The notes under the pieces: model-generated
The model's input: only the letters and a program-made list of their open reading frames with translations
Databases searched by the model: none
What the model was told of the DNA's origin: nothing
Part shown: positions 6,592-64,000 of the stretch, piece by piece
Numbering within the stretch: the stretch's first letter is position 1
How the letters are laid out: every line of letters starts with the position of its first letter
Made by a program: the position numbers and the translations under genes
DNA from: Cephalotus follicularis
Taxonomy: Eukaryota; Streptophyta; Magnoliopsida; Oxalidales; Cephalotaceae
Assembly: GCA_001972305.1 (NCBI GenBank)
Contig: BDDD01001806.1
Span: 145,142 to 209,141, forward strand
Reading direction: 5' to 3'
Length of the DNA stretch: 64,000 bases

Positions 6592-7383
6592 TGAATAAAC
6601 TACAAAGGGGGGGGGGGGGGGGAATTATAGTTTATAAAAATAATTGACTTTTTTTTGCAATTTTAATTTAACAAACAAATGAACAAGTATGTATGTAAAT
6701 AAAAGCAATAAAATAACAATTCAAAGAGAGAGAGTTAGAGAGTTTGCAAAGTGTTAGGTAAGTCTTGATGTCACTTGTGTTATTCTTTTTTTTCTCTTCA
6801 AAAAACCCTTTGTATATATATGTTTCTTGCCTCAGAGATCCGTTAGGTAAGTCTTGAAACTTGGTGCATCAAAACGGCGCATTAAAACTCTGTCAGAAAT
6901 CTTTTCAGCCGTGCAAAGCGTCTACTGTCTCCCTCAAAGCGTCGACGCTTATATGACCATTAGGTATTTTAATTTGAATTTGTCGAGTCAAAGCGCAGGC
7001 GTTCTGGATGTTGGAGTCGACTGTTGCCTCAAAGCGCAGACGGTTAGATCAAAGCGTCACCGCTTGTGTCAAATTGAATTCCATCTTAAGTCACTGGTTT
7101 AATCAGCAGACTCTGTGTGTCAAAGCACAAACGCTTAAATGTAGGAGTTGACGGTTTGAGCATTTGTTCCTCTCCTCAAAACACTTCAACGGTAGACGCT
7201 TTGTTCATTCTCTCGACTGTTGCACAAAGCGCTGATGCTTTATTTCTGAGCATCGATGCTTTATCCTATTTTTGTAGTTTTTCTTGCTGTTTCGCGCATT
7301 CCATGTTTTTCTTGCACATAAAGAGACTTGTTAAATACAAATATGTTATCATCAAAACTAGGATTGAGACATAAATGTCAACA
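6592..7383 (-). repeat. H 3' LTR (shortened)
   Basis: 792 bp, TGAATAAAC to GTCAACA on the plus strand. It matches the 5' LTR but lacks the segment corresponding to about 14748-15118, joined near 6750-6770. It carries a 16-G run (6607-6622) just inside its terminus and the TCGA-palindrome cluster at about 6868-7262. Confidence 0.93.
6868..7262. repeat. TCGA-palindrome cluster in H 3' LTR
   Basis: Short interspersed motifs such as CAAAGCGTCGACGCTTA, GTCGACTGT, AAAGCGCTGATGCTTTA and GCATCGATGCTTTA, spaced by about 25-60 bp. The most complete form, AAAGCGTCGACGCTT, is a 16-bp perfect palindrome when a final T is added. Confidence 0.85.
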
Positions 7384-7400
7384 ATCTCCCCCTTTTTGAT
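7384..7400 (-). other. H polypurine tract
   Basis: The minus strand reads CATCAAAAAGGGGGAGAT immediately before the 3' LTR start TGTTGACA. This is the plus-strand priming site typical of SIRE-type elements. Confidence 0.9.
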
Positions 7401-7882
7401 GATGACAAAATTTGTTTCATTTAAACATAATAAATAGTATAACTTAAAACATAACAAATAATGCACAAACACATTTGTTCCCCCTTAATTCATTATCTCC
7501 CCCTTTGTTAAACAAGGGGTGTTTACTTTGTCATTATTTCCCTATCTTTTCTTATACTTTCTCCCTCTTTTTGTTATCATTTCAAAAAGGATTTAAATTG
7601 TTATAATCAAATCAATTTGTTGTTGGAAAACCATGTCAAATTCATTCATGACATTGGATTAAGTACAAAACAAAGCATTCAATTTCACATTGCATACTTC
7701 AAACCAATCACAAGTTTTACATATCGAAATTAAAACAATACATAGACATAAAATGCATAATGAGATATCACGAAGCTTGTTGAATACATCAAACTATTAC
7801 AAAGATAATACCACAAATCATAAAATGTTGTTCACAGCAAAATACTACATCATCATGGAATGCAAAAATAAATTGCATGAGC

Positions 7883-9183
7883 TTAGTCGTTCATTTGAGT
7901 GTCTTCGTTTTCACCACCGATCTCTCCCTCCAAGTCTTCAGTTGCTCCATCATCTTGTTGAAAGTCATCGTTGTCGTGGCTGGAGGAGGAGGAAATGAGA
8001 CCTGCGTAATCCATTATCCCCGTTTGTGCGAACTTCTTTGCCATTCTCTTCTGTCTTCTTTTAACTGATTGCATATTCATTTTTATTTCTTCGACATTTT
8101 GCTGTAGTCCCTTAATCGCATTAAATATCTCATCTAGTTTGGTTCTTGGGAGGTTGATATCCGGTGTTTGCTTAACTTCAGGTTCTCTTGGTACATTTTG
8201 TGCTTCATCACCCATTTCTGCCTCTCCCTCTTCTTCAATGACTCTATTAGAGTCCTCTTCTCTTGGGATCCAGGTTCCAAGCCGTTTGTGCTTTTTGAAC
8301 CCCATTCTTCCTAAGGTTCCTTTACCTAACTTGTCAACACTCTGGAGTGGGTGATTTATTTCTCCAGTTAGGTCAATTGCGAAGAATTGGAGGATTTTGG
8401 TAATGATGTTGCTATAACCTAATCTGGCATTCTCTCGGTCATGGATTGCATGCATGTGATTAATTATCAAGAAAGGCACATTAATTCTCTTGCCTATGAT
8501 TAGGTGATACATGGTATATGCCTCCATGTGGGTTACCTCATCGAACCCACCAGCTCTAGGTAAAATGTGTGTACATACAGCACGATGTAGGAACCTATAA
8601 TGTGAACTGGGGTTCCTAGTCTACATTCGCTGTAGAAAATCAGCATTTTCACCAAAAATAATTCGTACACAATCCTGTCTATCAAAATCTCTACTTGTTA
8701 CCCAAGTTCTTTGGTTCCATCCCCTAGCACCACATTCAGAACATTTAGGATTGTGGCTAGTGTGTCAATTTCTAATTCAATTCCCTTGTTTTTGACCGTA
8801 GTGCTTAATTCTTCCATAGAGCTATTTAGAATGTGAACATAAAATTCCTTAATTAGCTCAGGATAGCTAGGTAAATTGATTGAAAATAAGGGTTCTAACG
8901 CTTGAGCACCTAGCCACTATACAATGGGAAAACCCTCATTATTGCAGAAATCAAAATCTAATATTTTACCTACTAGAATCTTACGATTAAAATAGGCTTC
9001 AGGATACCTAGGGAGTGAGGAAGCAACCTCTGGTGTGGCTGGATGAGTGTCTATGCCTTTCCCTTTGTGCCCAACAGATTTCCTTTTTGTGTTAGACCCT
9101 TGTCCAGCTTCAAAATTCTTGGTTCTTGGCATCTTTGATGTTAGTTTGAGGTTTATCAAGTATTTTTGAATGAAATGAGGCAC
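7883..9183 (-). pseudogene. H extra ORF with putative plant transposon protein (Transposase_32-like) domain
   Basis: An additional frame between pol and the 3' LTR, in the same direction as pol. It starts at 9183 or at a second ATG near 9132 (MPRTKNFEAGQG) and ends at 7883, over 400 codons in total. From memory of the family, SYPELIKEFYVHI (about 8862), HRAVCTHILPRAGG, HLIIGKRINVPF (about 8505) and LGYSNIITKILQFFAIDL resemble the conserved blocks of the plant transposon protein domain found in many retroelement extra ORFs. The C-terminal part has a predicted helical, coiled-coil-like stretch (DEIFNAIKGLQQNVEEIKMN) and an acidic tail. It is broken by a TAG near 8914, a frameshift near 8710 and a TAG near 8623. 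An env-like label is sometimes used for this position, but I see no signal peptide or membrane span. Confidence 0.7.
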
Positions 9184-9514
9184 AAAATCGCCAGAGACAG
9201 TGGGTTTAGAGTTAGGAGTTTGAGCTTTTGTGTAAAAATGGCTCGACAGACGGCGCTTTCTGTCTTAAAACACGACTAAAGCGTCGACGGAGTAGAGGGA
9301 GGCGTCAGCTCTTTGACTACTTTCCCTAACTCGAGCCCTAATTTTTGTATAAAGCGCTGACGCTTTAATGATAGGCGTCGGCGCTTTGCTCTGTTTTCTG
9401 TCGATTTTTCGTAAACGCATATGAATGAATGCAAATGATGCATTAATGAATAAACAAGCATATTGAGAAAACATGTATTATCACGCCAATCATATAAGCA
9501 TGTCAATCACTCAA
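9184..9514 (-). other. H noncoding spacer between pol and extra ORF, with a palindrome cluster
   Basis: No coding sequence is seen. At 9243-9395 it holds motifs of the same kind as the LTR: AAAGCGTCGACGGAG, AAAGCGCTGACGCTTTA and GGCGTCGGCGCTTTG. Because such clusters otherwise sit in LTRs, this spacer may act as an internal promoter or leader for the extra ORF; that is inference. Confidence 0.7.
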
Positions 9515-14592: not shown

Positions 14593-14594
14593 AT

Positions 14595-15746
14595 TGAATA
14601 AACTACAAGGGGGGGGGGGGTGAATTGTAGTTTCTAAAAATAATTATTTTTTTTGCAATTTTAATTTAACAAACCAATGAACAAGTATGTATGCAAATAA
14701 AAGTAATAAAATAACAATTCAAAGAGAGAGAGTTAGAGAGTTTGCAAACACGATTTTTAGAGTGGTTTGGCGTAACTCTTGCCTACGTCCACTTTTCCCA
14801 AGGATCTCCTTGAGTTTCCACTATTCTCCGAATAAAATTCCGGGTGCTATTCGGTACACCTTTGTGATTGACCTCATCACTTACAACTCTCTTTGGGTTC
14901 ACTCCCCAATTTCTTTTAGGGTTCACTCCCCTATTACAATCAAAGTGGATAGAATAAAGTTTTGTTCTAAACGTCTCAAAAGGTTAGATTTTACAAGATG
15001 AAATTGCTCAATCTAATTTGGAAAGAAATATTTGATAGGATATAAAAAGAGGGCTTTTTGAAAGAACTTCTTGATTTTGAATGCTTGTTGTTTGTTTTCT
15101 TGAATGATCTTTTGTATTTGATGTCACTTGTGTTCTTCTTTTTTTTCTATTCAAAAAAACCTTTTTATATATATGTTTCTTGCCTCAGAGATCCATTGGG
15201 TAAGTCTTCAAACTTGGTGCATCAAAATGGCGCATTAAAACTCTGTCAGATACGTTGGGTAAGTCTTCAAACTTGCTAAGCGTCGACTGTCTCCCTCAAA
15301 GCGTCGACGCTTATATGACCGTTAGGTATTTTAATTTGAATTTGTCGAGTCAAAGCACAGGCGTTCTGGATGTTGGAGTCGACTGTTGCCTCAAAGAGCA
15401 GAACGTTAGATCAAAGCGTCGCCGCTTGTGTCAAATTGAATTCCATCTTAAGTCACTGGTTTAATCAGCAGACTCAGTGTGTCAAAGCGCAGATGCTTAA
15501 ATGTAGGTGTCGACGGTTTGAGCATTTGTTCCTCTCCTCAAAACACTTCAACGTTAGACGCTTTGTTCATTATCTCGACTGTTGCACAAAGCGCTGACGC
15601 TTTATTTCTGAGCGTCGACGCTTTATCCTGTTTCTGCAGTTTTTCTTGTTGTTTTGCGCATTCCATGTTTTTTTTTGCACATAAAGAAACTTGTTAAATA
15701 CAAATATGTTATCATCAAAACTAGGATTGAGACATAAATGTCAACA
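14595..15746 (-). repeat. H 5' LTR
   Basis: 1152 bp, TGAATAAAC to GTCAACA on the plus strand, the full-length copy. It has a 12-G run at 14609-14620 and the palindrome cluster at about 15225-15640 (CAAAGCGTCGACGCTTA at 15297, AGCGTCGACGCTTTA near 15611). It is followed by target duplication GTATT. Confidence 0.94.
15225..15640. repeat. TCGA-palindrome cluster in H 5' LTR
   Basis: Same arrangement as in the 3' LTR, with several copies closer to the perfect AAAGCGTCGACGCTTT form, plus single GTCGACTGT, GTCGACGG and AAAGCGCTGACGCTTTA variants. Confidence 0.88.
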
Positions 15747-16269: not shown

Positions 16270-16274
16270 TCAAT

Positions 16275-16613: not shown

Positions 16614-16683
16614 GGCCCACCAGCTTTTGTCTGGTTCATCCCCGAACCACATCTACTAGAGGGGATCCCTCTCTGATACCAAT

Positions 16684-17534: not shown

Positions 17535-17789
17535 TGTAATACCCTGCTCGTTCGTAAATGTATTTTACGGAATTTATGTGTGTTTTCGGGCTTTTAAATT
17601 TTGGTTAATTTTAAAGTCCGGTTGCCCTGTGTTTTGGGCTTATATGATTTGGACTGATTGATACCAATCCGATTTTGGGTATGTAATGATATGTTGGGTT
17701 TGGTCCTATTTAATCAAAATTTTATTTCATTAAAACAACTAATTTTTATTTTTAAAACCCTTTTATTCCTTTTATTTTAATTATTTTAC

Positions 17790-17882
17790 TATTTTCCTTT
17801 CTTTTTCTTTTTCTTTTTCTTTTTCTTTTTCTTTTTTTCTTTTTTTTCTTTTCTTTCCTTCTTTCTTCTTTCTTTCCTATTC
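17790..17882. repeat. (CTTTTT)n microsatellite in G 5' LTR
   Basis: A pyrimidine-rich run of CTTTTT units degrading into CTTT/CTTC. The counterpart in the 3' LTR is at about 23975-24068 and differs in length. Confidence 0.9.
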
Positions 17883-18696
17883 TTCTCCCTCCTTCACCCG
17901 AACTCTCTCCTCCCTCTTTACTTCCACACGGCAGAAATCTTTTCTTTCCTTTTCTAATCCCATGAAATCTTACTTTCTTCCATTTTGAGCAGATTTGGTC
18001 TCCCTTTTTCCTTTTGTAAGTGCCATTGTCATTCTATAATTGCTTTCTTCTTTTTCTGCAATTGCCACTGCCGAATTCTGCATGTGAGTCTGTGTTAGAT
18101 TGCTGTGGATTCATTTCATCAGGTTGTAGAGGTAATCTCGAATTCTGTTGTCCTTTGGTTGGATTTCTTAGATTGGTTTAAAGCTTTATGCTTTGCTCTT
18201 GGTTTTGTTCTCTTTGGTCCCCTGTGTACAGCTGATTAAACAGTAAGATTGTGGTGTTATTGCTGTGTTTTCGTGTCCTTGGTACTCACTGAAGGTTAGT
18301 TAAATTCGTTTCCTCCAGTGATGGTTTTGTTCCAATGTCATAAATTCAGTTTTTATGCTCTTAATGTCACTTGGGTTCAATTCCTATGTTAATATGTTCT
18401 GCCATTGTGTTGTTAAGTCTGTTAACATGTGTAATACACCTTAGACATGTCACAATCTAGTTTTAAAGTCTGCAAATTAATAAGGGACACAATCTGGACA
18501 CACATGTATGCATGCCTTCTTGTTTTCTCTTGGAAGCTAAGTCACTATCAAATTGTTTCCTATGTCAATTCTGTGTTTTTACGTCACCTAATAGTCATAC
18601 ATGATCATATGTTTATGTCCTTGTGTCACTGGATTAATGTTGTATTCATTTGAACCCATTTCTGTATTGAATTGTCTAGTTTGATGTTGTTCTGTC

Positions 18697-18912
18697 GTCC
18701 AGAACAGTCGGCTGTTCCTGTGGACAGTCGGCTGGATTGGATGAGCAGCCGATTACCAAATGAACACAGTCGACTACCTTAGGTTGAGTAGTCGACTGGA
18801 CCTATGAACCAGTCGACTGCCTGTATGCTGGTTTGAGTAGTCGACTAGCCCTTGTGATTAGTCGACTGCCAAGCTTTCCCAGTCGGCTGGAGCTCTGTAA
18901 TAGTCGACTGTT
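18697..18912. repeat. AGTCGACT palindrome cluster in G 5' LTR
   Basis: About ten AGTCGACT or AGTCGGCT motifs in roughly 215 bp, mostly 15-25 bp apart (for example AGTAGTCGACTGG near 18808 and CCAGTCGACTGCC near 18823). The core is an 8-bp palindrome. Confidence 0.92.
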
Positions 18913-19920
18913 TTGCCCAGAAATGTACTGTTTTCAACTGTTTTGTTCCGTTTGATCTTTGAATCTATCCGAGTCTTTTCCAAACACTGTTATGAGTCTG
19001 TTTAACGTTTCTGATGTGTCTTAGACTCTTATACGTATGATTTTGGATGCCTTTTAGATTGTGTGCTTCAAAGGGGAATTTGTTTTTGATCGCCTATTCG
19101 TAAGTACTTTGTGATCGCATAAGGTACAGATTTTCTGTTCCTTGGCTATCTGATATTTCGAACTGAAACAATTTTGATATGCTTCTTCGTTTATGAAATC
19201 GATAATGTTTTATGGTTTTGATATGTTTCGAAATTAAAGTTGGTTTGATATTTTTAAATGATTCCGACTTTATACATATGATATGAAATGATACGATATG
19301 TTATGAAACATATGATATGATACCGTCGTGAGCGGTTTTCCAATATGTTTTGTGAAAGCATATTTTATGTGTTTTAAATTGATTTCGATAAATCAATGTT
19401 TTTGAAATAAATGAATACTGAGTATTGTACCCACCTATGGGGCGTACCATAGGCACGTCGTGGGCCTGGCACGGGGACGTGACACTTCCGTAGCGGTGTG
19501 ATTAGTCTACGGCGTCTCNTATCGTTTACTGTTTTTATTTCCCTTATCCGTACTGAGGTTTGCTCAGCCGCGTTTTTGTTTCCATGCGGCAGGTTTTCAG
19601 GAGCAGCGAGGGAAAGTGTGATTGAGTGATGACCATCCTATGTATTGGATTCTAGAGTGTGATCCCTATGTTATGTTTAGTGGTCATAAACACTGATAAT
19701 TATGTTATTATGTTTTAAATTGGAACTGGATTATGTTTTGAGTTTTCTGCAAATATTATTTTAATGTTAAGATGACTGCCACGTTTTTGGCTATTTTTGG
19801 CAAATAAGAAAGCTTATGATTAGTAATGTTATATTTATGCTCAGATGAGTCATGTTATACTATGATAGGTTCTGTATGATATATCCCGTGACGACTCCCA
19901 CCGTCCGGGGGTGTTACAGA

Positions 19921-23713: not shown

Positions 23714-26529
23714 TGTAATACCCTGCTCGTTCGTAAATGTATTTTACGGAATTTATGTGTGTTTCCGGGCTTTTAATTTTGGGTTAATTTTAAAGTCCGG
23801 TTGCCCTGTGTTTTGGGCTTATGTGATTTGGGCTGATTGATACCAGTTCGATTTTGGGTATGTAATGATATGTTGGGTTTGGTCCTATTTAATCAAAATT
23901 TAATTTCATTAAAACAACTAATTTTTATTTTTAAAACCCTTTTATTCCTTTTATTTTAATTATTTTACTATTTTCCTTTCTTTTTCTTTTTCTTTTTCTT
24001 TTTCTTTTTCTTTTTCTTTTTCTTTCTTTTTCTTTTCTTTCCTTCTTTCTTCTTTCTTCTTTCTTTCCTATTCTTCTCCCTCCTTCACCCGAACTCTCTC
24101 CTCCCTCTTTACTTCCACACGGCAGAAATCTTTTCTTTCCTTTTCTAATCCCCTGAAATCTTTCTTTCTTCCCTTTTGAGCAGTTTTGGTCTCCCTTTTT
24201 CCTTTTGTGAGTGCAATTGTCATTCTATAATTGCTTTCTTCTTTTTCTGCAATTGCCACTGCCGAATTCTGCATGTGAGTCTGTGTTAGATTGCTATGGA
24301 TTCATTTCATCAGGTTGTAGAGGTAATCTCGAATTCTGTTGTCCTTTGGTTGGATTTCTTTGATTGGTTTAAAGCTTTATGCTTTGCTCTTGGTTTTGTT
24401 CTCTTTGGTCCCCTGTGTACAACTAATTAAACAGTAAGATTGTGGTGTTATTGCCGTGTTTTCGTGTCCTTGGTACTCACTGCAGGTTAGTTAAATTCGT
24501 TTCCTCCAGTGATGGTTTTGTTCCAATGTCATAAATTCAGTTTTTATGCTCTTAATGTCACTTGGGTTCAATTCCTATGTTAATATGTTCTGCCATTGTG
24601 TTGTTAAGTCTGTTAACAATTGTAATACACCTTACACATGTCACAATCTAGTTTTAAAGTCTGCAAATTAATAAGGGACAGAATCTGGACACACATGTAT
24701 GTATGCCTTCTTGTTTTCTCTTGGAAGCTAAGCCACTGTCAAATTGTTTCCTATGTCAATTCTGTGTTTTTACGTCACCTAAAAGTCATACATGATCATA
24801 TGTTTATGTCCTTGTGTCACTGGATTAATATTGTATTCATTTGAACCCATTTCTGTATTGAATTGTCTAGTTTGCTGCTGTTCTATCATCCAGAACAGTC
24901 GGCTGTTCCTATGGACAGTCGGCTGGATTGGATGAGCAGCCGACTGCCATATGAACATAGTCGACTGCCTTAGGTTGAGTAGTCGACTGGACCTATGAAC
25001 CAGTCGACTGCCTGCATGCTGGTTTGAGTAGTCAACTGGCCCTTGTGATTAGTCGACTGCCAAGCTTCCCTATTCGGCTGGAGCTTTGTAATAGTCAACT
25101 GTTTTGCCCAGAAATGTACTATTTTCAACTGTTTTGTTCCGTTTGATCTTTGAATCGATCCGAGTCTTTTCCAAACACAGTTATGAGTCTGTTTAACGTT
25201 TCTGATATGTCTTAGACTTTTATACGTATGATTTTGGATGTCTTTTAGATTGTGTGCTTCAAAGGGGAATTTGTTTTTGATCGCCTATTCGTAAGTACTT
25301 TGTGAGCGCATAAGGTACGGATTTTCTGTTCCTTGGCTATCTGATATTTCGAACTGAAACAGTTTTGATATGCTTCTTCGTTTATGAAATAGATAATGTT
25401 TTATGGTTTTGATATGTTTCGAAATTAAAGTTGGTTTGATATTTTTAAATGATTCCGACTTGATACATATGATATGAAATGATACGATATGTTATGAAAC
25501 ATATGATATGATACCGTTGTGAGCGGTTATCTGATATGTTTTGTGAAAGCATATTTTATGTGTTTTAAATTGATTTCGATAAATCAATGTTTTTGAGATA
25601 AATGAATACTGAGTATTGTACCCACCTATGGGGCGTACCATAGGCACGTCGTGGGCCTGGCACGGGGACGTGACACTTCCGTAGCGGTGTGATTAGTCTA
25701 CGGCGTCTCTGAGTGTATGAATAAATCCCATGAGGTGGATTTATGGATCCGCTATGTATGATAGAGGCGTATGAATCGATTCTAGTTTATGATATATGAT
25801 CTAGTGAATGATCAAATATGTGATCAGATGGTTGATCTGATATATGATATGTGAGAATTGACTTGTGTAGTGCCGTACACTTCAATTCTAGTGGGCATGT
25901 GGAATTAGCGCCTCCCTTGCCGAATTTATGTTATGTGATATGTATGTGACTCAGTATGATTTGTGATTTATAACCTATGATTCGTAAATGATTTTATGAA
26001 ATGTTTCGTAATTGTTTCAAAAGTTATCTGGATTTATGAAAGCACAAATATGATTTTTACGATTATTTATTTGTTTAAGATTTATGTTATGTATCGTACT
26101 GCTTTTAAAATTATCGTTTACTGTTTTTATTTCCCTTATCCGTACTGAGGTTTGCTCAGCCGCGTTTTTGTTTCCATGCGACAGGTTTTCAGGAGCAGCG
26201 GGGGAAAGTGTGATTGAGTGATGACCATCCTATGTATTGGATTCTAGAGTGTGATCCCTATGTTATGTTTAGTGGTCATAAACACTGATAATTGTGTTAT
26301 TATGTTTTAAATTGGAACTGGATTATGTTTTGAGTTTTCTGCAAATACTTAATATGTCAAATTGTTAAGTTTTAATGTTAAGATGACTGCCACATTTTTT
26401 GCTGTTTTTGGCTAATAAGAAAGCTTATGATTAGTAATGTTATATTTATGCTCAGATGAGTCATGTTATCCTATGATAGGTTCTGTATGATATGTCCTAT
26501 GACGACTCCCGCCGTCCGGGGGTGGTACA
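23714..26529 (+). repeat. G 3' LTR (full length)
   Basis: 2816 bp, TGTAATACCCTGCTCG to GGTGGTACA. It contains the segment at about 25709-26111 that is missing at the N of the 5' copy, a microsatellite at about 23975-24068, and the palindrome cluster at about 24890-25100, somewhat more decayed (for example AGTCAACTGG). Confidence 0.94.
24890..25100. repeat. AGTCGACT palindrome cluster in G 3' LTR
   Basis: The counterpart of 18697-18912 with the same spacing. Several copies carry single substitutions (AGTCAACT, ATTCGGCT). Confidence 0.9.
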
Positions 26530-28980: not shown

Positions 28981-29984
28981 TTCTGTAATACCCCGTACCT
29001 GTTTTAAAGGATTATAAATTAAGGCCTTATTTGGCATATGGAAAGGACTTAAATGGGAATTATGGTAAGTTATTTTAAACATGTGGACATGATTAGTTTG
29101 GATTATTATATGATATATGGATTAGCTTCTTGGAGAAGCTTTGTGTTTTTCCCAAGGTGATGATGATATGATGGGAGTTCGTAAGTGGGCTGGTAGTGCC
29201 TTCTTGGTTAGTGGAGTTCAACTTTGAGAGAGAGAAGTAAGAGAGAGCTGGTTTCTTCTTCTTCTTTCCCCTTCTTCTATGAGCATTTTGGTTGCCCTCC
29301 TTTGCTTTTAAGCTGTGAAGGTAAGCTCTCCTCTTCCCTGGTTTGTGTTGTATGGTGGCACGTTGTGCTGGGGCAGAGGAGGAGCATGATAGCCTGGTTT
29401 GGCTGATTGTGTTTTCTGTTCATGCATGTGTTATGTCTTATTCTCGATCTGATATGTGTTAGTTTGCAAACGAGGAACCTGTTGCTCCGACAGAGCATCT
29501 TGGGGTTGGTCGACGGTAGCTTGATGCCATTTGTGAGTGAGACATTCTCCTCTTTCTTTTACTTGATATGTCGTGTGCCTGTTGTTATCCTCTGGTTGAA
29601 CGTTTTTCGTGGGATTTGGATCCCTGTTACCATTGTTTATGTTGTAATCCTATTCTTGGCAGAGCTTGAGAGCTCGGATGGTTCTTGGGTTGAACGTATG
29701 TTGTCCCTATGACAGTTGTTGTTTGCATCAAACGATATTTTTTTATTCTTGGTTCCTCTGATATGTGGGATGCACTGGGATGTGTGGACGTGATGCGTGG
29801 GTTATGGTCGGTGGTAAAGGGTACGTCCGAGGATCAACTCCCCTTAGTATTCTCATTGTCTATGATGGGATACTATGTGGGAACTGCCCCAGGGTTCAAG
29901 ACCTGGATCTGCGGTGTACTATTGTCTATGATGGTATGCTGAGTGTGAGTGCAGGGGTGTCCTCCGTTCCTTCCCATTTGGCCG

Positions 29985-43413: not shown

Positions 43414-46128
43414 TGTCACACCCCGTCTTTCCACAACATAAAAGTGGTAAAGCAATCAACATAAAATAATCCAACTCGTGCGAAAATACCGATAATTTAA
43501 AACCTTCAATAGCGGAAGCAATAACTTAACGAGCCGAATATAAAAACACATCACGCATCCCATACTACGTGATGCCCGATTATCCAAACACAACTGTTGA
43601 TCGCCCAAAACGGAGCGTGAAATAATACATCAGTGTGAATAACAAGATATCAATTATTACAAAATCCAAATAACATGATAAATGTTCAATAACCAAAATA
43701 CATAAAAGAGAATATCCAAGCCTTCTCTTTAAGTCTCCGTGCATGCTCCATATCAAGACTACTCCATCAATCTGTTACAGTAGGGGTTAGCCTTTGTCCT
43801 CACTCGGCTAAGTGAACAAATCCATAAATACAGTTCGAGTCATAAGATAAGGAATATCATGAATGAATGCATAATGATGATCCATGACATGTATTTTCTC
43901 AACAGTATACCTTTGTATATAAAAATATATGCATGCTCACAGTACAGGTATAACTCATAAGTTATATCAACACAGGCAGTAAATATGTTCCCAAAAAGGA
44001 ACCAGACAAACAGTCGTCATGACCGTCGCCACCTCCTGGCCCCAACGTCATGCACTCTTGCTTTAACCCAAACGGTTTTGGAGCAAGTCCTCAGTAAGTT
44101 GTTTAGTATGGCAACTAAACCAACAACAGGTTACCAGCACAGTGGCTAAGTAATCAACAGGTTATTAGCTCGGCGGCTAATAATCAACAGGTTATTAGCA
44201 CGATGGCCAATAATGAACAAGCACAAGCATTTCACAGTACAGGTCAAGCAATTATATATAATTACTTGATCAAATATATTTATGTAAAATATACTTTTCC
44301 GTTCACAGGTTGTAATAAGCCGATAACTTAAAACAATACATTTCTCTGTCATTGGAATTACTTCCCCAATCATTTTGAAAACATATCCATTTTTGCAAAT
44401 ACTTCGGTTTCATAATCAAACCCTTTAAAACATTTCTCAGTCATTGGAAATACTTCCCCAGTCATTTTGAAAATATATAAGTTCATGTAATGACAATTAT
44501 ACATTTTCGTACAAAATGATTATTCAATCATGCAAGCTTTTCAAAATGGTTATCACTTTTAGGAAAGCAACCATAATGCAAAACACTGTAACAATGCAAC
44601 CATATGCTCAGAATGCATCTATGTCCATTTCTAGAGTCGATTCGGGTCTAATGGTTCTCATTTGTGCGAAATTCTACTGTCCAGGAGGAAAGACGTCGAT
44701 GTCATTCCCTAAGGCGTCGATGTCTTTTAGCCCTAAGCGTTAACCCTATGTACAAATGTTTCCAGGCGTATCAGGACCAAAGACGTCGATGTCTTCTACA
44801 AAGACGTCGATGTCTTTTTCATACCAGAAGACATCAGTTCGCAACCATGATTCTAGAGGGCAGGATCCAACCTTTTAATCCCCTTTTACAACAGTTCCCA
44901 CTCCATAAACGTATAAGGTATGTTACTGGTTAATGGTTACACAACCATAACATCAATCCGAAACCAAACAGGTGATTCCAAGTGGCTAAAATGGCCATCA
45001 AACGAACATCACAGTTCTATAGTTTCCCAGAAAAGGAGTCGATGTCTTTATAAAAGACGTCGATGTCTTTTCATCACAGAACGTGTTTTCCACTTTTTAA
45101 ACACACCAAGCCATTTCCAAATCAATCATTTTCACATGCAATACACGTATTCATGTAATCATACATGCATAATAATCTCAGTGCATCACAGTAACATTTC
45201 AACAAGTCCAGAATCACAATCCAGTCAATAACATGCAACTCATCATGCTATTATTAACTTAGAAATCAAAATGCACATATAAACCCATTCACTTCCCCTA
45301 CCTTATTGTTCCAAGTTAGGAACCAGAAAGTCCACCTCTTTAAGTATCCAACAGGTCACAGCAGCCTCTCTAGGTCCGTCCCGTAGCTGCACCAGTGGTT
45401 CCAAGGTCCAAGCTCCAAGCTTCAAGCTCAACAATGGCACACACACACTCACTGTTTTCTTCTGGTGTCATAAAACGAGAGAGATAGGTGGGGAGGGTTA
45501 TTTTTATGCAGATTCCTCCCACCTAACACACTTATTCTGTCATTTAACAGCCACTCCCGAGATCTCTCACACTTTCTCTCCTTCTACATATTCTTTTATC
45601 TTCCTCTCACTTTCTTATGCAGATTGCATGTGAGGGTGGTAATCCTCTGCAGGTTCCATGTGAGGTTAGGTTTTTAGTGCTCCAGGTCAGTACACAGACA
45701 TGCTCAAAACGTCGAATCGCACTTGAAAAGGCATTAGGTAAGCCTCTAAACAAATCAACCTTGCATGTTGTTCTACCGACGAAGAACGTGCTGGCCATTC
45801 ACACAAAGGCATCGACGTCTTCCTTTAGACGTCGATGTCTTTTCCAGTTTGGTAAGAAGGTGTCGATGCTTTCTCCCAATGTCGACGTGCATGTCCCTTC
45901 TTCACGTGTACCCTGGATCCAATAGGAGTCGACGTCTTTCCAAAAGACGTCGATGTCTTTTTCCCAGAACGTTGCCGTTTCAACTTGACATACACATTCC
46001 AATTCCAAGTCCATAAGTAGGGTTTGTAAGCATCTTTTGAGTTCAAAACTCAACGTTCTCATTAAACCAAGTTTAACGATTACATCAAAAATGGAAATAT
46101 TACATTCAGGAAAATACCGAGCGTTACA
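43414..46128 (-). repeat. C 5' LTR (full length)
   Basis: 2715 bp, TGTCACACCCCG to GAGCGTTACA on the plus strand. Palindrome motifs at about 44690-45075, and a further set at about 45805-45960 (GACGTCGATGTCTTTTCC, AAAGACGTCGATGTCTTT) in the part missing from the 3' LTR. Confidence 0.93.
44690..45960. repeat. GACGTCGATGTCTT motif clusters in C 5' LTR
   Basis: Two clusters, 44690-45075 and 45805-45960, at least nine copies together. The second also has AGTCGACGTCTTTCC and TGTCGACGTGC variants. Confidence 0.88.
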
Positions 46129-46133
46129 GCCAG

Positions 46134-47879: not shown

Positions 47880-47896
47880 GCAACGGCGCCAAAAAC
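47878..47896 (-). other. E primer-binding site
   Basis: The minus strand reads TTTGGCGCCGTTGCCGGGG next to the 5' LTR end, the long site typical of Athila and related lineages, unlike the Met-tRNA site of other elements here. Confidence 0.9.
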
Positions 47897-47897
47897 T

Positions 47898-49272
47898 TGT
47901 TCACGTAAAAATAATAATGTTTTAAAATTTATAGCCGCAAGTGCACGGATCATGCAGTAATGGGTCGAACGCAGGAAAACGTTAAACTAGTTGTGATTTA
48001 TCCAACCTAGTCGAAGTATGCGAAATCAAGGTTTAATTATGAAAACTACTCCTAATTATGTAAAATAAATAATCAAAACAGGAAATTAAGACTTCGATAG
48101 TTAACAATACTGAATTCAAAATACCAAGAAATCAAGCATGCAATTTTAAAATGAATCAAAACAATGAATAAAAGTGAAGAAAATATATAATTAAGAAGTG
48201 GTTTTAGGATATAGAAACTCACCGTAGATTGTATTGAACAATTCCATTTATTTGAATGATCATACCTTGATAACCAGAGGCAGCTAGGTCGATACGAAGT
48301 GCGACGGTGATGACAAGACGTATGAGTAGACATGCTAGGTCTATACGAAGTGTGTTCATTGTGACAAATCATATGAGTAGACTCCGTTGATTGAATTAAG
48401 CACCATTTATTCACAAACTTTCAGCTTCACCGATAAGATGTTTGTGGATTTTAATCAGACAGACAAAGTGTGTGCGAAGGCAGGAATATTTGAAGAACAA
48501 ATCAAATATTCAAGGATTTTTATTGATGGAATTGAAACAATAACAATCTAGGCTATGTTCTTTCCTAAAACCTTGAAGAGTTTAGCTACTAAACATTGCA
48601 AAATAAACTAAAATTGACAAAGAAGAAAATAGGGTTTCTACCAGCCTCTCCTGAATTTGGCCGGCCTTGTATTATTTTATACTACAAAACTGATCAAAAA
48701 TGGAAATAAATCAATCCTAGTTACAAAATCTGGAAAAAAATCTAGCTTTCTATTTCTGCTGCAGAAGAAGACGTCGACGCCTTTAGTTGAAGGTCGACGT
48801 GTTTTGTAAAAAATTTCCGTTTGCTTGAGATGCGAGTAATGGACATCGATCCCTATGATGAATGACGTCGATGCATTTTGATCCAAAATCTACAGGTCAA
48901 ATTTGCACAAAGATATCGATCCGTTTGATGAAAGACATCGATGTCTTTCTCATAGCATTTGAAAGTAGGTTGCAATCCCAGAAAGGACATCGATCCGCAA
49001 AAAAAGGCATCGATGCGTTCACTACAAACACAAAAAAGACATCGATCCCTATGAAAGACATCAACGCTTTTTACTCTGTTTCTGCAGAATTTGTCAATTC
49101 TTCAATCTTTACACTTTCAAGCTCTAATTTGCACAACTTTGGGTAATATTCATGCACTTTGGTCCTTTTGCTCTTTGCCTGAAAATCATCACAATGCAAC
49201 CAAAGTAGTCCATTCCAAGCATAAAAATATCACAAATAAATCATTAAAAACAACACATTTTTATGCTAAACA
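47898..49272 (-). repeat. E 5' LTR
   Basis: 1375 bp with intact TG...CA ends (TGTTCACG and GCTAAACA on the plus strand). The motif cluster is at about 48770-49070 (GACGTCGACGCC, AAAGACATCGATGTCTTTC). Confidence 0.93.
48770..49070. repeat. TCGA-motif cluster in E 5' LTR
   Basis: The counterpart of 35095-35395. The AAAGACATCGATGTCTTT copy near 48941 is a perfect 18-bp palindrome, where the 3' LTR has ATATCGAT. Confidence 0.88.
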
Positions 49273-52740: not shown

Positions 52741-54761
52741 TGTAATGACCCAAAATTTCATTAAAGATATTAATTATGGAAAGATGATGGCTATTGTATA
52801 ATTGGCAAATATTTCAAGGGATCGTAGTATGACCCTACGCTCGGGTGGTTTGGGGGGTCCCACTACCCGGAAAGTGGGCAGAGGATCGGGGGCAGCGCCC
52901 CCGGAAGAAAATTTAATTTTGCTAATTGTTTTGAGCTGGAAATGTCTAAAGTGCCGACGGTTAGACTTAAAGCGTCGACGCTTAGTGCAACCGGTGACGC
53001 TAAAAATGTAACCTTTAGTGCTTTGAAGTCATGTAGTGAGGTTGACCTGGACGAGACTTAAAGTGGCGACGCTTTGTAAGAAAGCATCAGCGCTTTAGTC
53101 GGGATAGAAGTTGGAGAACTGAGGTCAAGCCCGTAAGCGACGACGCTTGAGCAAAAGCGGCGACGCTTTGAGCTACAGACAGATTGCAAAATCTAACTTT
53201 TTATCATTTGTGAGTAAAATTCCTTGATTTTGGACACGTGGCAGGCTAGGGGAGGATGATTTGAGATGTTATCAGATGATCTAACAAGTGTCATCACTTG
53301 GATTGGTAGAATTTGAGCACATGGGTTGCTAAGAGAGAGTTGAGTCATGTGAGAGAGGGAGAAGACTTGCCTCCCAAGTAACAATTCTATTTAATGACAA
53401 AGAAGGCTGAACTCAGTCATTTTGGCTGAGGATAGGAAGTGCTTTCTGCTGGGAATAAGTGGAGATTTCGGCAAAGCAAAGAGAGAAAGAAATTATAAGG
53501 CAAAGTAAGGAAATTCTATACCCATTTTCTCCAAAGTATCCCCTGTTTTACTTCCAGTTTTACAGCAGATCGTTTTATTAATATCTTGCTCAATTCTTGA
53601 TGAATTTTCGAATGGTTTAATGTTTTGGAAACTTCAAGATGTCTTCTTTAACTGTTATGTTTTATGATTCTCAAAATTATATCAGATTCTTGATGAGAAT
53701 CCATGTTTCATTTTACTGCTCATGGCCTGTTTTCAAAGGGAACCAGCCACTTTAAAAATTCATAGTAGATTCAATTCTCAACCAAATGTTATAAACTTTA
53801 GCTTTCTGTAATTGTTGAGATGTCTACTTCAATTTCAATGTTTTAAGTTTTCTCAGAAAATGATTACTTCTATATGAAATGTTAATTTTAGAAATGCTAT
53901 GAAAAACTATTTATGAATGCTTTGAGTTATGTACTCAAAATGATGAGAAATGTTTATGAATTGTGAAAGAATGATGTTTAAGAATGCTTTGAGCTGATCA
54001 CTAAAAGTATCAAGGAAATGTTTTATGAAATGATGAATGAACCACCCTTGGATTACGATCCAAGGGGAATGCAGCGAGATGCTCAATGTTAATGGAGCGA
54101 GATGCTCACGGACATGCATGTGATGTAAGGATAGTAGTCGGGGAGTACACAATGCCCCGGTGAAGTGGTGAAAAGGGTTCATTAAGGTTTTTATGACTTT
54201 CATGTTTACGAAATGATCTAGTTATGATTTTAACTAGAAAAGTGATATGTTTTATGAAATGTTTTAGTCATATATGTTGACTAGAAAAAGGTTACGATGA
54301 AATGTGTTTACAGTAAAAATACCTTACTGAGCTATTTTGAGCTCATTCCTTTCGATGTTTGTTTTCAAATAAAATGTTTTCAGGAAAGGATTAAGAGGAG
54401 AATGCGAGCTTTAGATGGAGCTCTTAACAAGGAGTTTTTGTGAAAGAAATGCTATGCAATAGTCTTTGCATAAATGTTTTGATATGTAATAAGATAATGT
54501 TTTCTGCTGTATTATATGTTATGATAAAGGATGATCCTGTGTAAATGTATGCCAACGATATGGTTATGACATCTTTATATGAGATGATTATGTGTAAAGT
54601 TTGAATTTAAGATTATGTATTATGTTGAAAGACACGAGTTTATGATGTAATGTACTTTTAGAGAAGAGTACCAAAGGATGTAACGGTTCACTCCCACGTA
54701 ATGCAATCGATCCTCAAAGTTCGCTTAGAGCTATTAGCGAACTCGGGTCGGGGGCGTTACA
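52741..54761 (+). repeat. D 5' LTR
   Basis: 2021 bp, TGTAATGACCC to GGGGGCGTTACA, with the palindrome cluster at about 52950-53170. It contains a segment (about 53899-54130) absent from the 3' LTR. Confidence 0.93.
52950..53170. repeat. TCGA/GCGACGCTT motif cluster in D 5' LTR
   Basis: TTAAAGCGTCGACGCTTAG near 52968, plus AAGTGGCGACGCTTTG, AAGCATCAGCGCTTTAG, AAGCGACGACGCTTGAG and AAAGCGGCGACGCTTTG. The first matches the copia H motif almost exactly. Confidence 0.9.
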
Positions 54762-54765
54762 AGAA

Positions 54766-59946: not shown

Positions 59947-61723
59947 TGTAATGACCCAAAATTTCATTAAAGATATTAATTATAGAAAGATGATGGTTAA
60001 TGTGTAATTGGCAAATATTTCCAGGGACCCGTAGTATGACCCTATGCTCGGGGGGTTCGGGGGGTCCCGCTGCCCGGATAGTGGGCAGGGCGTCGGGGCA
60101 GTGCCCCCGGAAGAAAATTTAATTTTGCAAATTGTTTTGAGCTGGAAATGTCTAAAGCGCAAACGGTTAGACTTAAAGCGTCGACGCTTAGTGCAACCGG
60201 TGACGCTCAAAATGTAACCTTCAGCGCTTTGAAGTCATGCAGTGAGGTTGACCTGGACGAGACTTAAAGCGGCGACGCTTTGTAAGAAAGCATCAGCGCT
60301 TTAGTCGGGATAGAAGTTGGAGAACTCAGGACAAGCCCGTGAGCAGCGACGCTTGAGCAAAAGCGGCAACGCTTTGAGCTACAGACAGATTGCAAAATCT
60401 GACATTTTGTAATTTTGTGAGTAAATTTCCCTAATTTTGGACATGTGGCAGGCCAGGGGAGGATGATTTGAGATGTTATCAGATGATCTAACAAGTGTCA
60501 TCACTTGGATTGGCTGAATTTGAGCACATGGGCTGCTAAGAGAGAGTTGAGTCATGTGAGAGAGGGAGAAGACTTGCCTCCCAAGTAACCATTCTATTTA
60601 ATGACAAAGAAGGTTGAACTCAGTCATTTTGGTTGAGGATAGGAAGTGCTTTCTGCTGGGGATAAGTGGAGATTTCAGCAAAGCAAACAGAGAAAGAAAT
60701 TCTAAGGCAAAGTAAGGAAATTCTATACCCATTTTCTCCAAAGTATCCCCTGTTTTACTTCAAGTTTTACAACAAATCATTTTATTGATATCTTGCTCAA
60801 TTATTGATGAATTTTTGAATGGTTTAATGTTTTGGAAACTTCAAGATGTATTATTTAACTGTTATGTTTTATGATTCTCAAAATTATATCAGATTCTTGA
60901 TGAGAATCCATGTTTCATTTTACTGCTCATGCCCTGTTTTCAAAGGGAACCAGCCACTTTAAAAATTCATAGTAGATTCAATTCTGAACCAAATGTTATA
61001 AACTTTAGCTTTCTGTAATTTTTGAGATGTCTACTTCAATTTCAATGTTGTAAGTTTTCTCAGAAAATGATTATTTCTATATGAAATGTTAATTTTAGAA
61101 ATGATAGTGCACGATGGCTCGGTGAAGCGGTGAAAAGGGTTCATTAAGGTTTTTATGACTTTCATGTTTACGAAATGATCTAGTTATGATTTTAACTAGA
61201 AAAGTTATATGTTTTATGAAATGTTTTAGTCATATATGTTGACTAGAAAAAGCTTACGATGAAATGTGTTTACCGTAAAAATACCTAACTGATATATTTT
61301 GAGCTCATTCCTTTCGATGTTTGTTTTCAAATAAAATGTTTTCAGGAAAGGATTAAGAGGAGAATGCGAGCTTTAGATGGAGCTCTTAAAAAGGAGTTTT
61401 TGTGAAAGAAATGACATGCAATAGTGTTTGCATAAATGTTTTGATATGTAATAATTTAATGTTTTCCGCTATATTATATGTTATGATAAAGGATGATCCT
61501 GTGTAAATGTATACCAACGATATGATTATGACATCTTTATATCAGATGATTATGTGTAAAGTTTGAATTTAAGATTATGTATTATGTTGCAAGACATGAG
61601 TTTATGATGTAATGTACTTTTAGAGAAGAGTACCAAAGGATGTAACGGTTCACTCCCACTTAACGCAATCGATCCTCGAAGTTCGCTTAGAGCTATTAGC
61701 GGACTCGGGTCGGGGGCGTTACA
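59947..61723 (+). repeat. D 3' LTR
   Basis: 1777 bp, same termini as the 5' LTR. It lacks about 235 bp corresponding to 53899-54130 (join near 61105). The motif cluster is at about 60155-60380. Confidence 0.93.
60155..60380. repeat. TCGA/GCGACGCTT motif cluster in D 3' LTR
   Basis: The counterpart of 52950-53170: TTAAAGCGTCGACGCTTAG near 60173, AAAGCGGCGACGCTTTG near 60266, AGCAGCGACGCTTGAG near 60341. Confidence 0.9.
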
Positions 61724-63692
61724 ATCTTGCTTTCAGACACTGGTACAGAATCGAGGGGATGACATTGTTCTCGTGAATCCAGGGCTGCCTAATAAGACAA
61801 GAAATAGTGGGCCCTCTTATCTTACTGACCTTTAGGTCCACCGAGACATGTCCCAAAGTTTGCAAAGTTACTGTACTAAAGCCAAATACATCTAATGATT
61901 GCTTTACAAGGTGCCTTTTTCGGATTCCTATTTCCTTGAAGGTGTCATAAGGCTTGAGGTTTCTGGAGGCGCCATTATCTACTAGAGCCTGCTTGAAAGT
62001 ATAACTCCGTTTATGATTGCTTCCAGATACAAAGGACGATTGTGGCACTTTGACTTTGCAATTCGTTATACTTCTGTGAATATAATAGCACCTTCATGTG
62101 CCTTTGCGATCTTCCTTATCGGCTGGTCCACCACAAAACATTCCCCACTATAATCATAAGAAATCCTTATGAAAGCTTTATTAGTATTATGCTTTTGCTA
62201 AGTCATTAAAACCAAAATGGTTGAGGAAACCTCTTACATTAGAACTTTAGAGTAGAGCTTATGCAAGTGGTCGATAATCATAATCTTGACTACCTGCTTC
62301 ATTAACATGAAAGGATTCATCCACTTCTTCGACAATGTAATCAATCAAAGGAATATTGGTGGCATGGGTACACACATGCGCCTATTCGGCCGAAGCATGT
62401 GGAGATAAAGGATTTTCCTGACATATCTTGGTTTGACCGCAATCAATCCTTCTTGGACATTCTGATGGTAGATCCTTCGTAGTGTGTAGCAGTCCCATGT
62501 AGAGTGCTCCGCATACTGATGGAAGTGGCAGTAATTTAGTTGTGCCATGTCTGTAGGTGTGGGGAGCTTCTGAAAAAATGGTAATTTGACGTCGTCGTTA
62601 GTTAGCCATTGATCCAGGAGTTCGTCAATCTTTTATGGGCTTACTGGAAATGGCGGTGGTTTGTCCCTATCACCGCCTGGCTTCCTTTTCTTTGAGGCTT
62701 TTGTTTTTGCCATATTTGTCGAAACGGATCTCCTCATGGGTTTATTTTGTGGCTTCAACTTTGACTCTTCTCATAGACCCTACAGTCCTCCTTACTACCT
62801 CACTAAGGCGTTCCACGGTTTTAATTCTTAGGTTTTCCAAGAACATCCTGGATTCATCATCCAAGCCTCAAATACAGGTGTCAACCACATGCTCCTTATT
62901 CACATTCTCTTGGCATTCCATGACCTGGTCTTCGAAGCCCTCCACGTAAGCATCCAACTATTCATTATTCTATTGGGTTATGTTCCCCAAGTCCATCACT
63001 GTTACTTGGGTTTGGGCATGGAAGAACTTGCCATAAAATATATCTGTCATATCCTCCCAGGTTGATACTGATCTTTGGGGTAAGTTGGAGTACTAGGTAT
63101 ATGCCTTCTCACTGAGCAACTTAGAGAACTCATGGAGGCGCAACGCCAGATCTGACCCATGCACTCCTAGAGCGTCAACAAAAGAGACTATGTGTTCCTT
63201 AGTACTTTTTGTCTTTCCATTAAACATAACACAATTTGGTACTTTATATTCCACTGGGAAAGGCATACTTACCAAGTGGGTTGGTTAAGGCGGCCACATG
63301 TCGATGTTGGCCAATAAAGGATAATCTCGGCCCTTGAGCATCAGTTGTTTCAAGTCATCCCTTGTCACATAAGGCATTTGACCTCTATCAATGCCCAACT
63401 ATAGATTGGAGGCATGCACGGGTGGTTTCTCAACATGAAGTGTATTAAGTTGGACTCCTAGTGTCGCTACAATGATAGGTGGGGTTTGGGTAGGCTAAAT
63501 AGGTGGTGTAACGATGGACAAGAATGGTGCTATGAAAGTTTGGTGTTGTTTGATAGTGTGATCATGTTGTTTCAATGTCTGTTGTTGTTGTTGCAAATTT
63601 GTGAGGATGGTGTTTTAGATAGTTTGGATAACTTCAATAATGGGTTGGAGAGTCGCAACTAGCTCAGTTTCCGGAATATTGTTCATAGGTGG
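61724..63692 (-). pseudogene. Tat gag and protease fragment
   Basis: Gag runs from 63692 leftward: a Q-rich N-terminal part near 63600, then CVMFNGKTKSTKEHIVSFVD near 63215 and several frames to YCHFHQYAEHSTWDC near 62530, the histidine/cysteine motif of Tat gag. Protease is open at 62048-61719: ALVDNGASRNLKPYDTF near 61975, VSVDLKVSKI and PWIHENNVIPS. The usual D(S/T)GAS motif reads DNGAS here. The left end is the ATCTT duplication of D; the right end is the copia LTR at 63693. Confidence 0.85.
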
Positions 63693-64000
63693 TGTTGACA
63701 TTTAATGTCTCAATTCCTAATTTTGATGATAACATATTTGCCACTAATGAGTTTGTTTTGTGCAAGATAAACAATAACACAAAGCAGATATAAATTGTTT
63801 TTAAACAAGCAAACGGCCGACACCTAATTTTGAGGTGGCGACGCCTATGAGATAGTAATTTTTGAAGGCGTCGAGAGTTTACATAAAGAAGTCGACTACC
63901 AATACGCACAAAGCGCCAGCACTCAAGAATTGAAAGAAGTGATACTCTAGCACTAAATTTTAAAGAGGCGACAATATTAGCACAAGTTCAGCACATGAAG
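63693..64000 (+). mobile_element. SIRE-like copia LTR, 5' end only, runs off the window
   Basis: It starts TGTTGACATTTAATGTCTCA, matching the minus-strand start of the H LTRs (TGTTGACATTTATGTCTCAA), followed by TTTTGATGATAACATATTTG in both. It diverges further on but keeps motifs GGTGGCGACGCCTA, GGCGTCGAGAG and GAAGTCGACTACC at about 63830-63905. It is therefore a related but distinct subfamily in the opposite direction. It interrupts the N-terminal part of Tat gag. Confidence 0.85.

Follow-up and report, generated by a model that had tools for sequence, protein, structure and literature searches.

This locus raises the question why the long terminal repeats (LTRs) of unrelated retrotransposons carry clusters of the same short palindromes centred on TCGA. 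A sequence-only reading of the window, i.e., of the whole stretch of 64,000 nucleotides analysed here, had described such clusters in LTRs of different superfamilies, and these turn out to be real and larger than described. From our point of view, the occurrence of the boxes in unrelated elements, mostly paired two helix turns apart, suggests that these elements have one kind of host switch in common. The clustering, the pairing, the retention in diverged copies and the sharing across superfamilies are results of computation.

Box clusters in copia and Ty3 elements

GTCGAC occurs 32 times in the window as compared to 5.5 times expected, a number that none of 100 shuffles reached, and RTCGAY, counted in one LTR per family (H5, G5, E5, C5, D5 and K), occurs 38 times as compared to ~6.3; outside the LTRs, 30 RTCGAY were found for 25.3 expected. 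The comparison with shuffled sequence had been proposed beforehand as one on which the observation could fail, and since the counts lie above the shuffles, the observation stands. In H3, H5 and G3, taken singly, the count equals the best of 300 shuffles. RTCGAY dyads cluster in the LTRs of the copia element H and the Ty3 elements G, C and E, and the boxes of element D are the same but degenerate. The D LTR exceeded its own shuffles in none of three simple counts; it is included among the box carriers because of the arms, eight of its boxes matching 8 or more of the 12 arm bases and forming four pairs 20–21 bp apart. Element F provides a negative control without paired boxes: the LTR part at 28984..30442 (no strand assigned) has two RTCGAY, 840 bp apart, and the two copies of the LTR hold 2 in 1845 bp and 0 in 1849 bp.

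Element H lies on the minus strand, and its pol is of the copia type (RVT_2). Its 3′ LTR (6591..7383, box cluster ~6915–7262) and 5′ LTR (14594..15746, cluster 15282–15620 with the pairs 15282/15303 and 15588/15609) were delimited by self-alignment, by the boxes and by two Sirevirus junctions, namely PPT AGGGGGAG-AT/TG at the former and the PBS junction CA/ATTGG-TATCAGAGC at the latter. Judged by these sequence features, H is a Sirevirus. A further cluster (9243..9393, minus strand, pair 9351/9372) lies outside the LTRs, between the pol stop and the ATG (9132–9130) of an additional, env-like ORF, which is broken in the window copy and part of which (7886..8620, minus strand) matches Transposase_32 (PF20167) with 45.2 bits at a cut-off of 45. 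Neither this cluster nor the pairing at 19–22 bp had been part of the sequence-only description. At the end of the window, which cuts the LTR, lies the start of a copia LTR of H's kind (K, 63693..64000, plus strand, boxes ~63811–63920), which over 80 bp is 83.8% identical to the beginning of the H LTR; an AAAGCG-type pair at 19–23 bp was not found in this stretch.

The pol and gag domains of G, C, D and E are of the Ty3 kind (RT_RNaseH, Integrase_H2C2, RVP_2, SH3_Tf2-1 or RVT_1). E is a putative Athila element, as in its earlier naming, and the lineage names Tekay and Athila given to G, C, D and E are likewise presumptive; what was checked is the Ty3 type of pol. Self-alignment and boxes place the G LTRs on the plus strand at 17535..19918 (5′, ten CAGTCGACTG-type boxes at 18707–18908) and 23714..26529 (3′, boxes ~24898–25100), and the E LTRs on the minus strand at 34155..35598 (3′, boxes 35095–35398) and 47898..49270 (5′, boxes 48767–49071, in pairs 19–22 bp apart). 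On the minus strand, too, are the C LTRs, the 3′ one at 39262..41557 (self-alignment and boxes; first ~420 bp missing; boxes 40539–40920) and the 5′ one at 43414..46127 (boxes 44689–45070 and 45805–45960, six pairs 19–21 bp apart). The D LTRs, on the plus strand and found by self-alignment, span 52741..54763 (5′, boxes ~52950–53170, pairs including 53060/53081 and 53134/53154) and 59947..61725 (3′, boxes ~60161–60380, pair 60266/60287). The earlier description of family-typical TCGA palindromes of 8–18 bp holds in part: the C clusters contain no exact one of at least 8 bp, only near-palindromes with one unpaired position, and each D LTR has one exact TCGA palindrome, its remaining boxes being centred otherwise.

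Two long forms had been said to cross lineages, and both do. AAAGCGTCGACGCTT is present in copia H (6936, 15298) and in Ty3 D (52969, 60175); AAAGACGTCGATGTCTTT occurs exactly five times in C (40650, 40903, 44800, 45053, 45943), and E has a form of it that differs by one base at 48931 and by two at 35258, in the 3′ LTR copy. Among the three arm types, AAAGCG..CGCTTT, AAAGAC..GTCTTT and CAG..CTG, two are found in both Ty1 and Ty3 elements and the third probably is as well. Boxes of the asymmetric AAAGAC type nearly always point the same way with respect to transcription (32:3). A second, unequal box recurs: NCGA is followed by TCAG in D, H, the internal cluster of H and that of L048, one H-internal module being reversed (CTGA, then TCGA), and GGGATCGATGTC or a near form takes this place in E, L039 and L041.

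Protein scans of IMG/VR (three, and one with alignment A1) confirmed no relatives in other plants. Residues 400–640 of H pol matched sequences of many plants, but no close one was among the best 120 of 7990 matches. Pattern scans of the same database gave 20 and 10 loci; sites were counted in all 30 and two were inspected in part, and we take these loci for chance matches, except for the array in L024.

Pairing at two helical turns and retention

The window holds 14 RTCGAY pairs with centres 19–22 bp apart (one in H5, three in G5, four in E5 and six in C5), whereas random placement leads to 2.5 and none of 5000 placements reached 14. In the ten-box array of G5, eight of nine steps measure 20–22 bp. 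Twenty further 10-kb regions (200 kb) contained 69 pairs at 19–22 bp as compared to 6 at 6–18 bp, and a genome pattern scan returned 224,538 matches to GTCGAC-N4-34-GTCGAC but 3,925 to the reversed pattern; 81 of the first 100 genome matches listed, which all come from the initial 358 kb of contig C1, are spaced by 19–22 bp. When the 64 palindromic 6-mers are ranked by pairs at this distance, GTCGAC comes out on top (25 vs 3.7), followed by GACGTC (4 vs 0.9). The pair distance is nearly independent of dyad length: when spacings up to 34 bp are considered, the range of 19–22 bp takes in 22 of the 26 AGTCGACT pairs (mode 21), 21 of the 23 AAAG..CTTT pairs (mode 20) and 26 of the remaining 48. 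A simple helical periodicity of all spacings was rejected, the peaks at 21, 42 and 63 being accompanied by others at 50, 71, 92 and 113.

In diverged copies, paired sites are retained in 75% of cases and isolated sites in 28%. Where a paired site has a diverged homologue (115 sites), column identity is 0.894 as compared to 0.715 in the flanks (higher at 101 sites, lower at 9), whereas for 46 isolated sites the values are 0.771 and 0.743 (27 higher, 18 lower); in these site counts, members of one family are not mutually independent. The G boxes compared with L051 are retained in two of seven cases, not better than flank words (0.34), which counts against a regulatory reading.

Possible functions and origin of the boxes

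In our opinion, the LTR clusters probably are regulatory arrays for a putative dimeric host DNA-binding protein, often with two dimers side by side. Each box would be a dyad held by one dimer, and boxes 19–22 bp apart, i.e., two helical turns, would align two dimers on one side of the helix. Several such modules of ~40 bp per LTR could act as an enhancer. The Ty1 Sireviruses and several Ty3 families would then use one host protein or protein family, with the three arm types possibly corresponding to paralogues, and the second array before the additional ORF of Sireviruses would probably serve an internal promoter. Convergent selection for such a factor-binding platform is the best supported of the explanations offered initially, because the spacing is two turns whatever the arm length and because sites are kept while their flanks decay, although the factor itself is putative.

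The position relative to candidate TATA boxes fits in part. Counted from the last dyad, TATAWAW starts 111 bp downstream in H5 (a TATA-like run at LTR position 573), 94 bp in E5 (TATAAAA) and 100 bp in L039, where the chance of finding it 80–130 bp from a random place is 0.05–0.11. In the five other LTRs of the eight examined (D5, C5, L053, LTR-b and G5) there is none at that distance, the less strict TATA-like sequences of D and C having been picked after the sequence was seen, and our confidence in the regulatory platform is reduced because the placement holds in three of eight LTRs only. Further points against the platform are that the G array lies ~1 kb downstream of the sole TATA-like motif found, that C has arrays on both sides of its candidate TATA box, and that a simple enhancer has no need of the orientation bias of the AAAGAC boxes. 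The box module upstream of the additional ORF in H has a similar counterpart at the homologous position in L048; TATATAA follows the latter, and no TATA box was found after the former.

The better folding of the clusters as RNA than of their shuffles also counts against the platform and leads to a different model, in which transcripts of the palindromes fold back into hairpins and thereby supply small RNAs and silencing, a proposal made for maize Sireviruses (Bousios 2016, as cited in PMC10760457). Each of the seven clusters tested has a folding energy below that of its shuffles on either strand (z −2.3 to −11.1), the mean 110-nt energy is in each case lower inside the cluster than outside it, and the LTR's lowest window falls inside the cluster in H5, E5 and G5 (G5: −50.8 kcal/mol). 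In addition, U3 is part of the 3′ end of the genomic RNA. We nevertheless consider hairpin silencing unlikely: no window falls below −40 in H5, E5, C5 and L039, the lowest one lies outside the cluster in D5 and LTR-b, the sense strand of C and L039 folds more weakly (its unpaired position being A.C rather than G.U), no fixed centre distance is predicted for unequal stems, and it would be odd for a liability to be kept across lineages. A further idea is that a sequence-specific host factor, e.g., a REM-type B3 protein, recruits Pol IV and DNA methylation via the boxes; elements would, however, be expected to shed a silencer site. The clusters are indeed CpG-rich for the window (observed/expected 0.76–1.47 vs 0.63), in part due to the CpG inside the box, and AAGCG of the REM motifs, which are tandem AAGCGGAT in REM8 peaks and tandem TTTTGCTTAT in VDD/VAL peaks with 1-nt spacers in the part of PMC12270911 available, matches part of the H/D arm. 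Those motifs are direct repeats, though, unlike the dyads of the boxes, and the agreement in five bases could be fortuitous, so that we regard a silencing platform as quite improbable and REM proteins as a lead only.

Kissing-loop dimerisation or packaging in the RNA leader would be in keeping with the self-complementary GUCGAC and AUCGAU, which AAAGC..GCUUU arms could expose as loops, and with the G array, which could sit in the leader; yet in H and E the clusters precede the candidate TATA box and hence are outside the 5′ leader, each LTR has multiple copies, CAGTCGACTG boxes have no stem and the loop of the most frequent AAAGAC form is imperfect, which makes this early suggestion very hard to uphold. 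Hardly any credit can be given to a functionless tandem duplication (minisatellite) or a composition artefact either. Some LTRs do contain partial internal duplications (L048, 5393–5594/5520–5717), but the boxes stay while the linkers mostly differ, shuffles do not reproduce the counts, and retention is seen in paired, not in isolated sites.

As to origin, ~40-bp modules could have been passed from family to family when reverse transcriptase switched templates, or by gene conversion, with function being secondary. This reading is compatible with the regulatory platform. H and D modules align over 36–45 bp at ~80%, linker parts included, an unequal second box is repeated in several elements, the AAAGAC boxes are constant in orientation, and C and E have one exact 16-mer in common outside the boxes (E-value 0.024). 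With all boxes masked, however, H–D (p 0.21), H-internal–D (p 1.0) and H–H-internal (p 0.285) are at shuffle level, one H-internal module has the opposite order, and before finer masking 6 of 78 cluster pairs had p ≤0.05 where ~4 are expected by chance. After finer masking, similarity persists for E–L041 (p 0.005). Longer homologous blocks, proposed initially as the finding that would speak against the observation, are thus mostly absent (C–E masked: p 0.585 for one C cluster and 0.055 for the other), and little similarity between families is left once the boxes are masked. We regard exchange as possible but doubtful. One could tentatively go further and imagine that a single factor system, based on paired TCGA dyads two turns apart, regulates much of the plant's LTR retrotransposons, Ty1 Sireviruses and several Ty3 families alike, that box types moved or re-evolved across superfamilies, and that the commonest regulatory grammar may be that of the retrotransposons.

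Relation to known LTR motifs

As far as found, the boxes in Ty3 elements, the forms common across superfamilies and the two-turn pairing are new: neither TCGA boxes in the LTRs of Ty3 elements nor pairing at 21 bp turned up in the literature searched. If the regulatory platform is correct, unrelated retrotransposons would converge on, or trade, a single host control handle, and two-turn pairing together with Ty1/Ty3 sharing offers a geometry that can be tested and a defined bait with which to look for the host factor.

The H boxes match the "RM boxes" of Sireviruses (Bousios et al., 2010; PMC2829016), which the accessible part of that report describes without a bound protein, as Sirevirus-specific and with a CGG-CCG core, Tnd-1 excepted; none of the literature found names a protein bound to them. 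Both kinds of box are family-typical, multicopy palindromes in the upper LTR half, upstream of the TATA box and CpG-rich. RM boxes come in at least eight copies per element, and H5 has nine boxes that match 8 or more of the 12 AAAGCG-type arm bases, many of them imperfect, with a TATA-like run shortly downstream. RM clusters are reported to start at 200–400 bp of the LTR; the H cluster is at ~130–462 of 1153. An extra RM cluster upstream of the env-like gene has its counterpart in the internal H cluster (five boxes by the same arm count) and the L048 module. Unlike the RM core, that of H is TCGA, NCGA or TCAG, and the boxes described here, with mostly RTCGAY or NCGA cores, are paired at 19–22 bp and are also carried by the Ty3 elements G, C, D and E. 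Two of the 13 RM boxes listed in PMC2829016 have a TCGA centre, namely Vitis CGGTCGACCG, which contains GTCGAC, and Tnd-1 ACAATCGATTGT; in the accessible text, "spacing" and "helical" occur in reference titles only.

The palindrome-rich cis-region of maize Sireviruses, a small-RNA hotspot (Bousios 2016, as cited in Martin 2023, PMC10760457), occupies the same LTR region and is likewise palindromic, but is read there, in the part available, as RNA hairpins. Heat-response elements in Brassicaceae COPIA LTRs, which several families are reported to have gained independently (available parts of PMC5059998 and PMC3907296), resemble the boxes as clustered short half-sites for a host factor; they consist of nGAAn/nTTCn half-sites in COPIA families, whereas the boxes are RTCGAY dyads with AAAGCG, AAAGAC or CAG arms. 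The ONSEN LTR is described as lacking symmetric C, whereas the boxes retain CG, and the REM motifs of CLSY3/CLSY4, being direct tandems, have only AAGCG in common with our inverted repeats. Lastly, the BII boxes of Tnt1 are also factor-binding boxes in a plant retrotransposon LTR, but according to the accessible part of PMC3316501 they belong to one element family and are not described as shared between superfamilies, whereas the boxes described here cross Ty1 and Ty3.

Elements of the window and abundance of TCGA-centred boxes

The window (C1806:145142-209141 of the 1.577 Gb genome G000, 9746 contigs) is made up of plant LTR retrotransposons nested in one another, and its self-alignment yielded LTR pairs for H, G, E, C, D and F. 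H carries a copia-type pol (RVT_2), its two junctions bear the Sirevirus signatures, and gag or pol domains of the Ty3 type are found in G, C, D and E. About 367 bp of the H 5' LTR (window 14749-15117) are missing from its 3' LTR (junction near 6750-6765). The first ~420 bp of the C 5' LTR, with one box cluster, are missing from the 3' LTR (window 41557-46127), the inter-LTR stretch of C being only ~1.9 kb long. Element E is apparently hosted by an F LTR (window 34154-49273), with both F LTRs interrupted or split, and a 316-bp direct repeat (spacing 409 bp, 91% identity) lies between H and G (window 16262-16986).

TCGA-centred boxes, i.e. short dyads mostly centred on RTCGAY, are far above chance in the pooled LTRs. 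GTCGAC occurs 32 times in the window vs 5.5 expected, and RTCGAY 38 times in one LTR per family vs ~6.3 expected, compared with 30 vs 25.3 in the rest of the window; the F LTRs represent a negative control. With up to three mismatches, AAAGACGTCGATGTCTTT and AAAGCGTCGACGCTTT gave 34 and 22 strand matches (0.07 and 0.10 expected). The C boxes are near-palindromes. In D alone, where centres are mostly other than TCGA, simple box counts are not above its own shuffles; scored by arm matches, a rule without shuffled control, the D 5' LTR shows eight boxes, which form four pairs at 20-21 bp. Among 20 further 10-kb regions, picked by contig number with contents unseen beforehand, no palindromic 6-mer is as strongly over-represented as GTCGAC (114 vs 15.9), and 15 regions hold 27 clusters of at least four sites (raw count without shuffled control). 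In the whole genome, AAAGCGTCGACGCTT has 7,729 forward matches vs 8 for the reversed control.

Other box arrays were also seen: a dense TAGTCGACTA array (12 RTCGAY in 300 bp) in an IMG/VR contig (L024:450-880; 56% GC over a 2.4-kb stretch), CAGTCGACTG boxes in an inverted repeat (L049:2334-7600; arms ~2.5 kb, 88.7% identity), and mostly unpaired GGCGTCGACGC-like boxes, perhaps a further type, in another repeat (L042:3874-5166).

Two-turn pairing and retention

Within the window, 14 RTCGAY pairs are spaced by 19-22 bp, vs 2.5 expected (sd 1.5, largest 9) when sites are placed randomly within clusters, and none of 5000 placements gave as many. According to the pair listing, 27 of the 35 clustered sites have such a partner. 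Distances in the 20 further regions likewise peak at 19-22 bp (69 pairs, vs 6 at 6-18 bp), with dyad length having hardly any bearing on pair distance. Genome-wide, GTCGAC-N4-34-GTCGAC has 224,538 matches vs 3,925 for the reversed pattern; 81 of the first 100 matches listed, all from the start of contig C1, fall at 19-22 bp.

In alignments of up to 90% identity drawn from the window and the further regions, RTCGAY is kept in 75% of paired sites (diverged homologue for 115/167), 53% of other clustered sites (58/124) and 28% of isolated sites (46/101), at similar flank identities (0.715, 0.759 and 0.743, respectively). Pooled alignment rows including coding stretches, which share families, count both directions and hence are not independent trials, leave 0.547 of 433 sites as RTCGAY, with flank 6-mers identical in 0.248. 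Between C and its relative L053 all 10 boxes keep RTCGAY, vs 0/9 flanking nnCGnn words. In G-type alignments the retention is weaker (3/7 and 5/7 against the two L046 copies), and against L051 the G boxes (2/7 kept) do no better than flank words. For one H box, the 3' LTR (window 7253) has AGCATCGATGCT and the 5' LTR (window 15615) AGCGTCGACGCT; the copies differ by a symmetric pair of CpG-type transitions that leave the centre intact.

Box types, polarity and possible function

The AAAGCG type surely occurs on both sides, namely in Ty1 (H, its internal cluster between pol and the additional ORF, and the internal cluster of L048, whose pol is 82% identical to that of H over 285 residues) and in Ty3 (D). 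The same holds for AAAGAC, found in L039 on the Ty1 side (gag 52% identical to H, PPT signature present) and in the Ty3 members C, L053, L041 (LTR not delimited) and E. The CAGTCGACTG type of the Ty3 elements G, L046 and L051 probably also has a Ty1 side, LTR-b (L048, L057, L039), judged copia by its C-rich end and the following gag in L057 (34% identical to H gag), although no PBS was seen between the two.

Of the 78 cluster pairs, 6 are at p 0.05 or less once the boxes are masked, among them D-E (p 0.015) and E-L039 (p 0.045) with TCAG-centred boxes left in. Masking these as well brings three H/H-internal/D pairs to shuffle level; E-L041 still reaches p 0.005. Since H and D modules (~40-bp box pairs) align unmasked over 36-45 bp at ~80%, and since C and E have an exact 16-mer outside boxes in common, single modules may have been exchanged between families. 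We regard this reading of their origin, which is compatible with a function as DNA platform, as possible but rather doubtful.

Asymmetric boxes are also mostly polar. On the sense strand, ATCGAC outnumbers GTCGAT by 32 to 3 in one LTR each of C (9:1), its relative L053 (6:1), L039 (10:1), L041 (6:0) and E (1:0); the second LTRs of E (2:0) and L039 (8:1) were left out, and the form is absent from H, G and D. Where an AAAGCG module includes a TCAG- or TTAG-centred box, this box lies downstream on the sense strand in one module of each H LTR, one of H-internal, one of L048-internal and two of each D LTR; one H-internal module is opposite. Such polarity is consistent with exchange by way of RNA, with an element that is sensitive to direction, or with the two together.

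From our point of view, it is somewhat more plausible than not that the boxes serve as a DNA platform to which a host factor binds as a dimer. Two dimers per module would sit on one helix face and act on the promoter of the LTR, as well as on an internal one in Sireviruses. Our confidence was slightly lowered by the TATA result. TATAWAW follows the last dyad at 111 bp (H), 94 bp (E) and 100 bp (L039) in 5' LTRs or the LTR examined (chance 0.05-0.11 per LTR), but none lies at 80-130 bp in D, C, G (5' LTRs), L053 or LTR-b; looser forms lying downstream by ~224 bp in D and by ~304 bp in C and L053 were chosen after the sequence was seen. In H as well as in L048, a module lies after pol and ahead of the additional ORF; it is followed by TATATAA in L048, with no such box found in H. 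That RNA hairpins formed by the boxes feed silencing appears improbable, G being its best fit and C and L039 its worst.

Comparison with known LTR boxes

Boxes in Ty3 elements, forms common to both superfamilies and the two-turn pairing are apparently new, no printed report having been found in the literature searched. In the parts consulted, maize Ty3 elements are described as generally lacking such a structure peak (Martin 2023, PMC10760457). Bousios et al. (2010; PMC2829016) reported palindromes, named RM boxes, in the LTRs of Sireviruses and also upstream of env; they proposed regulation and an internal env promoter, and termed the boxes Sirevirus-specific, a single binding factor not having been found. 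H is a good case of Sirevirus RM boxes, with a TCGA core.
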